A stretch of DNA of 46,661 nucleotides, from NCBI GenBank assembly GCA_030446555.1, contig JAUJNA010000004.1, forward strand, positions 97,908-144,568, read 5' to 3'. The position numbers and the translations under genes were made by a program. Source of the DNA: Chloroflexota bacterium (GTDB lineage Bacteria; Chloroflexota; Limnocylindria; Limnocylindrales; CSP1-4). The notes under the pieces were generated by a model. It had not been told where the DNA came from. It made no database searches and saw nothing but the letters and a program-made list of their open reading frames with translations. This document shows positions 17,603 through 23,827 of this stretch, piece after piece (positions within the stretch are counted from its first letter, which is position 1; every line of letters begins with the position of its first letter).

Positions 17603-17788
17603 TCAGAGCGGGCTCGTCTGGGCCAGCAGCCAGGATCCCGCGGCCGTCAGCCAGCACAGCAGCGCCAGGGTCACGGACCCGGGCTCGCCCAGGGGCCCCG
17701 TGACGACCAGGTAGAGGATCCCGCCGAGCACGGTCACGAGGACGACCTTGGCCACCCGGAGCAAGAGCTCGGCGACCAGGTCGCTCAC
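17603..17788 (-). CDS. small two-helix membrane protein after recR
   Basis: Sixty-one residues with two hydrophobic helices, about residues 12-31 ([20 protein letters not shown]) and 38-56 ([17 protein letters not shown]). The GTG start overlaps the recR stop as GTGA, so it is the last gene of the dnaX-ybaB-recR unit and probably translationally coupled. I do not recognise a named family. Its reading frame joins the recR middle frame without a stop because of the recR indels, so it can be missed as a separate gene. Confidence 0.6.
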
Positions 17789-18414
17789 CGGTCGACGGCC
17801 ACCTCGAACTCGCGGCGCCCTTGGAGCGCTCGGACCAGGGTCACCTCGTCGGCGTACTCCAGGTCGCCGCCGACCGGGATGCCGCGCGCGATGCGAGTGA
17901 CAGCCGCCACATGCCCCGACAGCCGCTCGGCCAGGTACATGGCCGTCGCCTCTCCTTCCAGCGTCGGGTTGGTAGCCAGGATGACCTCTTCGTACGGCTC
18001 CCCGGCCGCGCGACGCTGGGGCGCTGTCCAGGAGCTCACGGACGCGAAGCCGGTCCGGGCCTACGCCGTCCATGGGTGAGATGGCGCCATGCAGCACGTG
18101 GTAGCGCCCGCGAAAGGCGCCAGTGCGTTCGATGGCCAGGACGTCGAGTGCTTCTTCCACCACGCACAGCCGGCGTTCGTCGCGTTCGGGATCCAGGCAG
18201 ATGGGACAGCGCGGCCCGGTGCTGATGTTGAAGCAGAGATCGCAGAAGACGACCTCGTCGCGCACGGCGACGAGCGCCGCGGCGAGCGTCGCGCCTCCCC
18301 CTCGTGCGCGCGCAGCAGGTAGTAGGTCAGCCGCTGCGCCGTCTTGGGGCCGATGCCCGGGAGCCGGGCGAACGCCTCGATGAGTCGCGCGACAGGCTCG
18401 ACGAGCGCGGTCAC
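17785..18414 (-). pseudogene. recR: recR, recombination mediator, interrupted by two single-base indels
   Basis: RecR helps RecF/RecO load RecA at gaps. The N-terminal helix-hairpin-helix (LPGIGPKTAQRLTYYLLRA) is read from the GTG at 18414. The C4 zinc finger (CDLCFNISTGPRCPICLDPE) and Toprim segment (VVEEALDVLAIERTGAF) lie in the next frame. The end ([20 protein letters not shown]) is back in the first frame. A base appears lost near 18303 (GCGCGACG) and one C gained near 18020 (GCCCC). The two changes cancel, leaving 630 bases, the normal RecR length. All signature residues survive, so a sequencing error is more likely than a dead gene. Confidence 0.8.
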
Positions 18415-18420
18415 CGGGCT

Positions 18421-18729
18421 TCAGCCCATGCCGTTGCATCCGAGCCCACCGGTGACCCGTGCCATCTTCCCTTCAGCCGTTTCGCGGGCCCGCCGAAGGC
18501 CGTCATTGACGGCCGCGGTCACCAGGTCCTGGAGCATCTCGACGTCATCGGGGTCCACGACGCCCGGGTCGATGGTCACCGAGACCAGCTCCTGCCGCCC
18601 TGTGACCACCGCTGTCACGGCGCCTCCACCGGCCGTGCCCTCGAGCTCCAGGGCGCGCAGCTCCTCCTCGACACGGGCCATGTCGGACTGCATCTGCTGC
18701 GCCATCTTGGCCAAGTTGCCGAAACCCAT
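18421..18729 (-). CDS. ybaB: YbaB/EbfC-family nucleoid-associated protein
   Basis: One hundred and two residues, intact, with the family start (NLAKMAQQMQSDMARVEEEL) and the core AVVTGRQELVSVTIDPGVVD. Forms dimers that bind DNA. GAGGAG lies 8 bases before the ATG. The gene sits between dnaX and recR, the classical dnaX-ybaB-recR order, and is the only one of the three without a frameshift. Confidence 0.93.
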   Translation of the reverse strand: MGFGNLAKMAQQMQSDMARVEEELRALELEGTAGGGAVTAVVTGRQELVSVTIDPGVVDPDDVEMLQDLVTAAVNDGLRRARETAEGKMARVTGGLGCNGMG

Positions 18730-18747: not shown

Positions 18748-20378
18748 CTACGATCGGCTGATCTCGCGCACGTCCGCCGCCGATCATCCTGGAAGATCCG
18801 CCGGGCATGCTCCACTGCATCGGCGGCTCCGGTCTCGACCGGCGTCGCCAGGGCCACGTTCGTGGCCACGCAGCGCACGCCGACGGGTCGCCGCAGCACG
18901 TGCTCGAGGCCTTCCTCGAGCACCTCCGCTTCCGCTCCGCGATGTCACGGAGGAATGCCTGGTCCTCCGGGAACCGAGGACCACCACGCCATCCTGCATC
19001 TCCACCGGACGGCATGCCGAGATGAGGGCCGGTTCGCTGGGTTCCTGGCGACATGGTCGACCACCTCCTGCCAGCCGTCACGCAGCCGAGCCAGGAGCTG
19101 GTCCGACTCCGATGCCGAGGTGACGGCGGTGTGGACGCGCGAGGTGGTGGGCGGCGCGGCGGTCACCGCGGGCGTGGCGGTCGCGTCGGGCGTGGCGAGT
19201 CGCGCCTCAGGCGGGGCGGCGGGCGGGCGATCGACCCTCACCGGCCCGGTCACCGGATCGTCCTGCGCCGTACCGGGCTTCGGCCTCGAGCTGTCGAGTC
19301 CCGGTGCCCGTTCGCTGCTCGACGCCGCGTTCAAGAGCGCCAGCTCGAGCTGCCAGCGATAGCCCCCCAGCCCCGCCCGGCTGGCGTCGATGCCGCTCAG
19401 CCGGCGAGCGGCCCCAGCGAGAGCGGCCGCAGACGGACCGTGGCGGCCGGCACCGGGACCGGATGCGAGCGCCTCGACGAGCTGCTCCCGAAGGGCGGTG
19501 ACGACCTGTTCCGCGAACGAGACCAGGTCGCGGCCGTCCGCCTCGAGGCTGTCGAGCACGGCGATCCCGGTGAGTGCGTCGGCCGTGGCGAGCGCCTGGA
19601 CGAAGCGCTCCACCTCGTCACGATCGGCGATGCCGAGGAGGTCGCGGATCGAGCTGGCGGTGACGGGATCGCCGGCGATCCCCAGGACCTGGTCGAGCAT
19701 CGACTCAGCGTCGCGCATGCCACCCCCTGCCAAGTGGGCGATGAGGTCCAGCGCGGCCGGCTCGGCCGAGCGACCCTCTTCCTCGAGGATCCTGTCCAGC
19801 TTGTCGCGGATCTCCGCGCCTCTCAGCGGGCGGAATGTGAAACGCTGGAGCCGCGAGATGACGGCGGGCCGGATCTGGCTGGGGTCCGTCGTGCAGAAGA
19901 CGAAGAAGACACCGTCCGGTGGCTCCTCGAGCGTCTTGAGCAGGACGTCCCAGCCCTCCTTGATGCGCTGCACCTCATCGATGATGAACACCTTCTGGCG
20001 GAGGTCGGCTGGCGCGGTGTAGACGCGGGGAAGGAGCTCGCGCATGTCGTCGACGCGGTTGTTCGATGCCGCGTCCATCTCCACGACGTCGAGCGCGCGA
20101 CCGTCGCGGATGGCGGCGCACGACGGGCAGCGATCGCACGGTTCGCCGTCTTCCAGGTCGGGACAGTTGACCGCCTTTGCCAGGATGCGCGCCATGGAGG
20201 TCTTGCCGGTGCCGCGCGGCCCGACGAAGAGGAAGGCGTGTGCCAGGCGATCGAGGCGAACGGCGTTGCGCAGCGTGGTCACGACGGCTGCCTGACCCAC
20301 GATCTCACCGAAGGTCTGGGAGCGCCAACGGCGATAGAGCGCCTGGTGCGGCGCGGCTGCGACCGAGCGTGTGGCCAT
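18748..20378 (-). CDS. dnaX: DNA polymerase III gamma/tau subunit, C-terminus frameshifted
   Basis: Clamp-loader ATPase. From the ATG at 20378 the protein reads ALYRRWRSQTFGEIVGQ, Walker A GPRGTGKTSMARILAKAV, a four-Cys zinc module (CPDLEDGEPCDRCPSC) and Walker B VFIIDEVQRI, and is continuous to about 19025. After that the sense moves through other frames (MQDGVVVLGS, FPEDQAFLRDIAE, EVLEEGLEHVLRRPVGV) by what look like four single-base losses in short G/C runs, near 19030, 18970, 18935 and 18770. The TAG at 18748-18750 fits as the natural end. The unbroken frame ends at 18945. A C-terminal domain of the tau type is implied. Confidence 0.88.
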
Positions 20379-20507
20379 CGGCCTCAGGATGACGGAAACC
20401 GCTCCGCGATGGGACGGCCGGGCTGGTGCCCGGGATCGATGTGCCGTGCACCCTCCGTCGACCGAGACGCTCGTGGGCCCACCTGGGCGGTCGGCTCGGA
20501 CCAGGCC

Positions 20508-20590
20508 GGTCCGCGGCACCCGGCGAGCAGCGCTTAACGCTGCTTCCTTCCGGACCTGACGTGGTTCACGCGTCGCCGCTGCGCGGGACC
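20508..20590 (-). ncRNA. ffs: signal recognition particle RNA (bacterial small type)
   Basis: The minus strand holds the SRP RNA hallmark GUCAGGUCCGGAAGGAAGCA, the two internal loops that bind Ffh. Outer helices are formed by ggtcc/ggacc, cgc/gcg and ggcga/tcgcc, which set approximate ends of 20590 and 20508. It lies upstream of dnaX, a common place for this gene. The exact 5' end is uncertain by 10-20 bases. Confidence 0.88.
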
Positions 20591-20760
20591 CGATCCTCAT
20601 CGCCGATCACCCCGGCGGCATCCGCGGGCGCGGGCCTCGGGAGGGGATTCAGCCCTGCTGAAGCGGATCGCAGGTACAGGGCACCGCTAGTTCCCCGCCT
20701 AGCACGGCATGGGCATGATAGCGGAGGCGATGCGCGTAGCAGGTCCCGGTGGTCTGCAGC

Positions 20761-20848
20761 TGGCGGAGAGGGCGGGATTCGAACCCGCGATGGGTTGCCC
20801 CATACCGCATTTCCAGTGCGGCGCCCTAGGCCTCTAGGCGACCTCTCC
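20761..20848 (-). tRNA. tRNA-Ser (anticodon GGA), CCA encoded
   Basis: GGAGAGG pairs with CCTCTCC. The loop CTGGAAA gives anticodon GGA, and a long variable arm and a normal TTCGAAT T-loop are present. Discriminator G and CCA are encoded. It follows tRNA-Ser(CGA) by 29 bases and is probably co-transcribed with it. Confidence 0.95.
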
Positions 20849-20877: not shown

Positions 20878-20963
<86 letters not shown>

Positions 20964-21052: not shown

Positions 21053-21529
21053 TCACCGAAGCCGGGCGAAGTCTCGCTTCATCGCTGCGCGACCGTTCCG
21101 CAGATCCGGTCGCAGGTCTGCGGCATCGGCCTGCAGGATGCCCGAGACGACGTGCAGCCGACGCGGCAGGAGGTCCGTGTCCGCCAACTGGAGGCATGAG
21201 CCGGCCGCACCCTCCACCGGGTCGGCCGCCGCGTAGACCACGCCATCGGCATCGCTCTGGAGCAGCGCCCCCACGCACATCGCGCACGGCTCCACAGCGC
21301 AGAAGACGGTGACGCCGGAGAGACTCGCCCGACCGAGCCGCCGCGCGGCTTCCCGGAGCACCACGACCACGGCGTGCGCCGTGGGGTCGCCGGCGCTCAC
21401 GACCTGCTCCCTCCCATGAGCCACCATGGCTTCACCGAGCACGGCCACGGCTCCGTCGGCTCGCTCTCCCGTGGCGGCGGCGGCCGCGGACTCGGCGAGC
21501 GCAGCGCGCATATAGAGCTCGTAGTTCAC
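21053..21529 (-). CDS. TadA/CMP-deaminase-fold protein lacking the catalytic Glu
   Basis: The 158-residue protein has the layout of tRNA adenosine deaminase TadA: a helical start, a GAVAV strand, a DPTAHA segment (48-53), and the zinc-binding EPCAMC (80-85). The proton-shuttle Glu of the HAE motif is Val (H52-A53-V54; codon GTG where GAG is expected), and the tRNA-contacting GHN segment reads HGRE. The zinc ligands remain, so the fold should bind metal but not deaminate in the known way. It may be a pseudoenzyme, a divergent activity, or a point sequence error. It follows pfp by 40 bases but has its own -10 box. Confidence 0.75.
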   Translation of the reverse strand: MNYELYMRAALAESAAAAATGERADGAVAVLGEAMVAHGREQVVSAGDPTAHAVVVVLREAARRLGRASLSGVTVFCAVEPCAMCVGALLQSDADGVVYAAADPVEGAAGSCLQLADTDLLPRRLHVVSGILQADAADLRPDLRNGRAAMKRDFARLR

Positions 21530-21569: not shown

Positions 21570-22619
21570 TCAGCCGAACAGGGCCGCCAGGTCGAGCATC
21601 GACGGGTCCACCTGGCGGTTCCGGCCGCGCACGAGGCTGAGGGGCACCTCGATGATCTCGTCACCTCGCAGCGCGACCATGACGCCGTATCGCCCGGCCT
21701 CGATGGCCGCCACGGCCGCCACGCCGTACCGGCTGGCCAGCACACGGTCGAAGAGGCTGGGCGATCCACCGCGCTGGATGTGGCCGAGCACCGTCACCCG
21801 GGTCTCGATCCCGGTGCGTGTCTCGATCTCGCGGCCGAGCCGTTCCCCCACCCCGCGGCGATCGAGCCGTGGGTGCCCGAAGGCGTCGAGGGTCTCTGTC
21901 GCACCGTCGCCGGTGCCATCTCCCAGATCCTCGGGCAGCACGACCCCTTCCGCGACCACCACGATGCTGCTTCCCGTGCCGATGGTGGCGCGTCGGGAGA
22001 GGTGATGGCAGGTCGCCGCCAGGTCGATGGGGCGTTCCGGGACCAGGATCGCGTCAGCCCCGCCTGCGAGCCCGCCGTAGGTCGCGATCCAGCCGGCGTC
22101 GCGGCCCATGACCTCCACGACCATGACCCGGTGGTGGCTGGCCGCCGTCGACTGGAGCCGGTCGATGGCCTCCATGACGGTGGTGGCTGCCGAGTCGAAG
22201 CCGATGCATCGGTCGGTCTCGGCCACGTCGTTGTCCATCGTCTTGGGCACGCCCACGACCGGTTCACCGCGCTCCGCGAGTGCAGCCGCCACGGACAGCG
22301 TGTCGTCGCCACCGATGGCCACCAGGGCATCGAGTCGCAGTCGCCTGAGGTTGTCGCGGACGGCGTCCATCCCGCCCTCGCGGTCCTGCGGGTTCGTGCG
22401 GGAGGTGCCGAGTACGGTGCCGCCCTCGCCGAGGATGCCGCTCACGTCGAGGTGACCCAGCTCGACCGCGTCGGGGCGGCCGGGTGTCGCGAGCCCGGCC
22501 CAGCCGTTGCGCAGCCCGACCGTCTCGTGGCCACCCACCTCGGCGCGGCGCGCGACCGCCCGGATGGCCGCATTGAGGCCGGGACAGTCACCACCTCCCG
22601 TGAGCAGCCCGATGCGCAT
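21570..22619 (-). CDS. pfp: 6-phosphofructokinase, pyrophosphate-type signature
   Basis: Converts fructose 6-phosphate to the 1,6-bisphosphate. The N-terminus GLLTGGGDCPGLNAAIR, the PKTMDNDV active-site loop (catalytic Asp), and the MGRDAGW and HIQRGG motifs are present; 349 residues. Residues that decide the phosphate donor read GGDD (103-106) and PKTMDND (K126). Asp and Lys at these places mark PPi-dependent enzymes, while ATP enzymes carry Gly at both. The ATG at 22619 has GAGGAG 8 bases upstream. An upstream extension stays open but lacks family sequence. A role in reversible glycolysis is inferred. Confidence 0.9.
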   Translation of the reverse strand: MRIGLLTGGGDCPGLNAAIRAVARRAEVGGHETVGLRNGWAGLATPGRPDAVELGHLDVSGILGEGGTVLGTSRTNPQDREGGMDAVRDNLRRLRLDALVAIGGDDTLSVAAALAERGEPVVGVPKTMDNDVAETDRCIGFDSAATTVMEAIDRLQSTAASHHRVMVVEVMGRDAGWIATYGGLAGGADAILVPERPIDLAATCHHLSRRATIGTGSSIVVVAEGVVLPEDLGDGTGDGATETLDAFGHPRLDRRGVGERLGREIETRTGIETRVTVLGHIQRGGSPSLFDRVLASRYGVAAVAAIEAGRYGVMVALRGDEIIEVPLSLVRGRNRQVDPSMLDLAALFG

Positions 22620-22721
22620 CCGATCCACTCCTCGCCTGGTTCCGCCCGCAGCATGCGGGCACGGAGGCGATGGTAACGAGGGATCGTATGCAAGACTCCC
22701 GGCGTGCTGAGGGACCGGACG

Positions 22722-23751: not shown

Positions 23752-23827
23752 TGGCGCGCCCGGCGGGACTCGAACCCACGACCTTCAGGTCCGCAACCTG
23801 ACGCTCTATCCACTGAGCTACGGGCGC
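23752..23827 (-). tRNA. tRNA-Arg (anticodon GCG), CCA encoded
   Basis: GCGCCCG pairs with CGGGCGC. The loop TTGCGGA gives anticodon GCG, and the T-loop TTCGAGT is normal. CCA is encoded. It follows tRNA-Ser(GCT) by 37 bases and is likely co-transcribed. Most bacteria read CGN codons with an ACG (inosine) tRNA, so GCG is uncommon. Confidence 0.93.

Follow-up and report, generated by a model that had tools for sequence, protein, structure and literature searches.

A TadA orthologue without its catalytic glutamate is conserved in Chloroflexota that carry tRNA-Arg(GCG)

We have found that the window, by which we mean the whole 46,661-nucleotide stretch of Chloroflexota DNA analysed here, encodes an orthologue of TadA in which the catalytic glutamate is replaced by valine, and that orthologues without this glutamate are maintained throughout the family of the source genome (f1) and its sister family (f4). 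These orthologues accompany a tRNA-Arg with the anticodon GCG, which replaces tRNA-Arg(ACG), the usual substrate of TadA. We consider it highly probable that the protein, which we call pseudo-TadA, is a dead TadA orthologue that selection retains for a role other than deamination. TadA, from which the adenine base editors were derived, is usually regarded as an enzyme that has one purpose and is often essential. The Chloroflexota family concerned, which consists of soil and water bacteria, would amount to an experiment of nature: the substrate has gone, catalysis has been dropped and the protein has been kept, implying that the fold can be worth keeping without editing.

The pseudo-tadA gene and its locus

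An earlier note on this DNA had claimed that the HAE motif of TadA is changed to HAV, that the zinc-binding histidine and PCxxC motif remain and that the GHN motif is lost, and all three readings stand. The plus strand reads CAC at codon 54, so that the codon is GTG and Val54 takes the place of the catalytic Glu. The motifs of the protein are H52-A53-V54 and P81-C82-A-M-C85, with the zinc ligands H52, C82 and C85 all present and 100% conserved across f1 and f4, and GRE (E41) replaces GHN. The NCBIfam TadA model NF008113 is matched with an E-value of 7e-26 and 91 bits; the equivalog cut-off of 150 bits is not reached, which says little, because most of the active-looking TadA proteins of f3, from the same class, miss it too. 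The Pfam matches of the protein are deaminase families and its top matches among solved structures are TadA. The predicted structure (a single-chain model with mean pLDDT 90.6 and pTM 0.85) has the TadA fold, and in a Foldseek search this model matched TadA best (E about 1e-16), followed by guanosine deaminase, ADAT2 and ADAT3, the ADAT3 matches having TMq values of 0.76-0.78. A search of a viral fold library yielded nothing beyond other deaminases, and these matches were weaker. The note had also suggested looking for another tadA, and the source assembly (2.09 Mb in 21 contigs, 78% complete) holds this single TadA-like gene and no second one.

The locus order in f1 and f4, read to contig ends and subject to few rearrangements, is tRNA-Ser(gct), tRNA-Arg(gcg), pseudo-tadA, tRNA-Ser(cga), tRNA-Ser(gga), dnaX, ybaB and recR. 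Proximity of tadA to dnaX-ybaB-recR is known from other bacteria, and the active f3 tadA of genome G058 likewise has tRNA-Ser and dnaX beside it. Because this canonical locus is shared, pseudo-tadA is best understood as a vertical descendant of tadA and not as a stray paralogue. The recR gene of the window is split over frames -1, -3 and -1, as against the intact recR of relatives, and its two apparent frameshifts are probably assembly errors. On the other side, a pfkA-like gene (21570-22676, minus strand) adjoins pseudo-tadA on the same strand; in the five relatives compared, the pfkA-like neighbour lies on the opposite strand to pseudo-tadA and is only 37-39% identical to that of the window.

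Table 1. Features of the pseudo-tadA locus in the window
Feature	Position	Strand	Basis
Pseudo-TadA (TadA orthologue without catalytic Glu), 158 aa, GTG start	21053..21529	-	ORF, profile, synteny, fold
Codon 54, GTG (Val); Glu in TadA	21368..21370	-	sequence
Codon 52, His, zinc ligand, 100% conserved	21374..21376	-	alignment
Codons 82-85, C-A-M-C, zinc ligands C82 and C85, 100% conserved	21275..21286	-	alignment
Codon 41, Glu; substrate-binding Asn (GHN motif) in active TadA	21407..21409	-	alignment
tRNA-Ser(CGA), conserved neighbour	20878..20963	-	tRNA listing, synteny
tRNA-Ser(GGA), conserved neighbour	20761..20848	-	tRNA listing, synteny
dnaX (ORF), canonical tadA-dnaX-ybaB-recR neighbourhood	18945..20600	-	ORF, synteny
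ybaB-like, conserved neighbour	18421..18729	-	ORF, synteny
recR, conserved neighbour, two apparent frameshifts	17785..18414	-	ORF, synteny
tRNA-Arg(GCG), replaces the usual TadA substrate tRNA-Arg(ACG)	23752..23827	-	tRNA listing

Conservation of pseudo-TadA and the accompanying tRNA-Arg

The observation extends beyond one genome. Our alignment contained 53 distinct f1 sequences, 17 f4 sequences and 26 controls with Glu, 18 of which were from f3. Glu is absent from all 53 f1 sequences, where residue 54 is valine (92%), isoleucine or threonine, and from all 17 f4 sequences, where it is valine throughout; HAE is present in 18 of 18 f3 sequences and Glu54 in all 26 controls. The f1 codons at this position are GTG (26), GTC (22), GTA (1), ATC (3) and ACG (1), a synonymous turnover indicating that the valine is old and has been maintained, and is not a recent change. 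A single step would turn GTG into GAG, and no reversal to Glu was seen. When 400 genomes of the phylum were scanned at the DNA level for DPTAHA and then a codon whose middle base is T, the TadA matches were confined to f1 and f4. In other families 12 loci with HAV-pattern matches could be read, and not one of them contained a TadA-like ORF; five further places with such matches (in G058, G073, G248, G301 and G340) lie outside this set. Within genus g2 the motif is HPV in place of HAV (L072, L077, L208, L213 and L223), a change that adjoins the zinc ligand. In one f3 genome a TadA-like frame (L342 of G108) is shortened internally with the reading frame preserved, so that residues about 79-160 of the f3 protein, and the zinc site with them, are missing; this reflects either biology or misassembly.

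Pseudo-TadA spans about 30 genera with its frame intact in nearly all, and the gene is found in most near-complete genomes. D48, P49, T50, H52, T74, F76, E80, P81, C82, M84, C85, G87, V98 and G107 are kept in 100% of the f1 and f4 sequences. For the closest pairs, dN/dS is 0.10-0.20 in f1 and f4 and 0.10-0.17 in the active f3 genes, as estimated by NG86. With genes this rich in GC, the NG86 values for more distant pairs (medians 0.22-0.35) are not reliable. Judged from these sequence comparisons, pseudo-TadA is shown to be under purifying selection and not decaying, and such conservation calls for a second function. The gene was not found in 8 of ~90 f1 genomes, mostly incomplete ones, though G067 is 94% complete, and TadA is missing from all genomes of f2, which are ~1 Mb in size and probably belong to the Limnocylindraceae; since some f1 and all f2 genomes lack the gene, the second role would be dispensable at least in reduced genomes.

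The losses in pseudo-TadA are not restricted to the catalytic residue. The anticodon-loop contacts of Staphylococcus aureus TadA are N42, R94, K106, N123 and the C-terminal Phe (PMC3711424). In our alignment, position 41 is Asn in 26 of 26 controls and in f1 is Asp (39), Glu (4), Asn (4) or another residue (6), its range being D/E/N/A/G in f1, D/Q/H/R/C in f4 and D/H in the Omnitrophota discussed below. Position 93 is Arg in 24 of the 26 controls and Asp or Glu in all 53 f1 sequences, with Arg kept in 10 of 17 f4 sequences. Lys105 and Asn122 are mostly lost in f1, the positions of R70 and D104 are partly kept, and the C-terminal Phe-Phe (F143-F144), found in 26 of 26 controls, is gone from pseudo-TadA along with its helix. 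Most of the residues expected to grip the anticodon loop (Asn41, Arg93, Lys105, Asn122 and Phe-Phe) are thereby shown to be missing. The C-terminal tails are variable and have no conserved D or C close to the end.

The tRNA-Arg(GCG) that the earlier note had placed in the window is present there, and the tRNA-Arg complement of the source genome comprises GCG, TCG, CCG and TCT; tRNA-Arg(ACG) is absent from its 39 tRNA matches (assembly 78% complete). The note had gone on to propose, as an inference, that without tRNA-Arg(ACG) deamination is unneeded and the Glu could be lost. This coupling holds well outside the source genome. tRNA-Arg(GCG) was seen in 30 f1 genomes that have the pseudo-gene, and none was found to have ACG; tRNA-Arg(GCG) is present in 16 f4 genomes, and the f2 genomes with a full-match tRNA also have GCG. 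The nearest outgroups have a Glu-bearing TadA together with tRNA-Arg(ACG), which was found in 13 f3 genomes. The same pairing is seen in Omnitrophota. Relatives with HAE, which the note had named as counter-evidence, were found solely in lineages that keep tRNA-Arg(ACG). We found no exception to the rule that a residue other than Glu at position 54 goes with tRNA-Arg(GCG), and Glu54 with tRNA-Arg(ACG). ACG-like pattern matches in f1 and f2 (G003, G022 and G042) were set aside, none being called a tRNA by ARAGORN. The f3 genome G056 (97% complete) has tRNA-Arg(GCG) at L354:3183-3257 and no TadA, its one TadA match having been rejected for its resemblance to RibD; it is a further ACG-to-GCG switch, here with gene loss. 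In G060, of family f5, a tRNA-Arg(ACG)-like sequence at L140:2478-2538 apparently lacks the T arm and receives no ARAGORN call; this genome has no clear TadA match, and the sequence is perhaps a decaying tRNA gene.

A parallel case is found in the Omnitrophota, where one metagenome-assembled genome (L016) encodes HAV. Among the genomes of its class that were read, 27 proteins have HAE, with tRNA-Arg, where listed near tadA, being ACG; GCG accompanies HAV in G167 and G210 of the same class and HAA in G175. Two more cases, G733 and G802, came from a scan of the whole phylum, both with HAV and GCG and with the tRNA gene near pseudo-tadA. Proximity of this kind is frequent in Omnitrophota (L335, L337 and L338; G196, G181 and G200), with tRNA-Arg (ACG or GCG) often about 10-150 bp from tadA or pseudo-tadA, an arrangement that sets substrate and modifying enzyme side by side.

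Two separate origins, in Chloroflexota and in Omnitrophota, are likely on this sequence evidence though not proven. The five Omnitrophota proteins without Glu form one group inside Omnitrophota in the best tree, among relatives with Glu and ACG, and two changes are required to explain the states on it. The identity of these proteins to active Omnitrophota TadA is 50%, as against 38-40% to the f1 and f4 proteins, and they have 17 diagnostic columns in common with the former and 4 with the latter. For three of the five Omnitrophota tRNA-Arg(GCG) genes the nearest match is an Omnitrophota tRNA-Arg(ACG), and the other two are, by raw identity, about equally close to Chloroflexota GCG genes. The alternative of a single event, which concerns origin and not function, would have a linked tRNA-Arg(GCG)-pseudo-tadA pair passed between the two phyla. 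It draws on the linkage of the two genes in both groups and on an AU test that, on this short protein, did not reject a single HAV clade (p 0.48), which is why two origins are not proven; given the nesting, the identities and the tRNA genes we regard it as unlikely.

Function of pseudo-TadA

We propose that the tRNA-Arg anticodon switched from ACG, which needs A34-to-I conversion, to GCG, which does not, and that tadA, vertically inherited at its original locus, then became catalytically dead in the switched lineage. The switch would have preceded the inactivation, because the reverse order would leave A34 unmodified, but this order is not forced, since B. subtilis survives without TadA (PMC10454642). 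Hydrolytic deamination would have been lost with the Glu, which shuttles the proton in this superfamily; in ADAT3 the exchange of this Glu for Val contributes to inactivation (PMC8216470). Normal anticodon-loop binding would have been lost as well. The zinc may now be structural, as in ADAT3; yeast ADAT3 depends on zinc for its stability (PMC7713142), which would explain why the ligands are kept without catalysis. The protein would have been kept as a putative TadA-like dimer with a deamination-independent binding or scaffold role. Our first choice for this second role, held tentatively and at somewhat less than even chances, is protein or RNA binding near translation, inherited from active TadA. 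A more speculative possibility is that TadA has a second, deamination-independent function widespread in bacteria, which becomes visible where the tRNA switch made catalysis dispensable; selection would then have kept just the zinc-bound body of the protein, independently in two phyla.

Other accounts of the protein fare less well. It might still be catalytically active, by a new mechanism or on a new substrate, with another residue performing general acid-base catalysis at the zinc, as the strict retention of the zinc ligands and the frequency of Asp or Glu at position 41 (39 D and 4 E of 53 in f1) would allow. However, the alignments of f1, f4 and Omnitrophota contain no new invariant acidic residue able to replace the Glu, position 41 being variable in all three, and the two strictly conserved acids in the vicinity, D48 and E80, occur in ordinary TadA too, which makes this account improbable. 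That pseudo-tadA is a relic, purposeless after the tRNA switch and eroding so slowly as to seem conserved, would fit with a function no longer required and with the loss of the gene in f2 and its absence from G056, both with tRNA-Arg(GCG). Against this stand the intact frame across about 30 genera, the presence of the gene in most near-complete genomes, the complete conservation of the zinc site and core, and the low dN/dS of close pairs, and we rate slow decay a poor prospect.

The protein could also be an ADAT3-like subunit that forms a heterodimer with an active deaminase. The Glu-to-Val change, zinc retention and C-terminal shortening are common to it and ADAT3 (PMC8216470, PMC7713142), and a few members of the clade have a second deaminase with HAE (L127-L130). 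Yet a second protein close to TadA is missing from the source genome and from most relatives, and the HAE paralogues, which occur sporadically, fall far short of the TadA cut-off. There is also no tRNA-Arg(ACG) to edit, an ADAT3-type N-terminal domain is absent, and the variable C-terminal tails offer no conserved candidate for a zinc ligand. Such a partnership is very improbable. Sporadic second deaminases with HAE, HSE or HGE occur in some f1 and f4 genomes (L127-L130, L210, L225 and L226); they are far from TadA by score and are possibly guanine or other nucleoside deaminases. A sequencing or assembly error concealing a true GAG codon in an ordinary TadA, for which the two apparent frameshifts in the neighbouring recR offer a precedent of imperfect assembly, is ruled out for practical purposes by the 53 f1 and 17 f4 orthologues, which come from many separate assemblies, use different codons and lack further active-site residues together with the Glu.

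Relation to known systems

Pseudo-TadA resembles the bacterial TadA enzymes (PDB 7cph, 1wwr, 2b3j and 1z3a) in locus, fold, zinc ligands and core motifs, and differs from them in lacking the catalytic Glu, the substrate Asn, most of the anticodon-loop contacts, the Phe-Phe helix and the substrate tRNA. The tRNA-Arg(GCG) state itself has precedents. In Mollicutes tadA has been lost, and tRNA-Arg(GCG) is then found in some of them (PMC3711424); Candidate Phyla Radiation bacteria have tRNA-Arg GCG and no tRNA-Arg(ACG) (PMC8629427). Both groups are reported to be without tadA or inosine, whereas in the genomes described here an apparently dead, constrained protein is kept. In the literature searched, which included few subscription journals, we found no description of a bacterial TadA that is inactive yet retained.

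The closest likeness is to ADAT3/Tad3, the pseudo-catalytic subunit of eukaryotes (PDB 7nz7 and 7bv5), with which pseudo-TadA shares the Glu-to-Val replacement, the zinc triad, a shortened C-terminal helix and the loss of the tRNA determinants of the site. In contrast to ADAT3, the 158-residue protein consists of the deaminase domain only, without the N-terminal tRNA-binding domain, and lacks an active ADAT2-like partner, a conserved candidate for the C-terminal zinc ligand and an A34 tRNA to edit; its origin is separate. As predicted from its sequence features, pseudo-TadA is ADAT3-like in being a zinc-bound pseudo-deaminase, yet is neither ADAT3 nor active TadA. It offers a counterpart among bacteria to the catalytically inactive subunit ADAT3, together with a set of genomes in which the hidden function can be sought.
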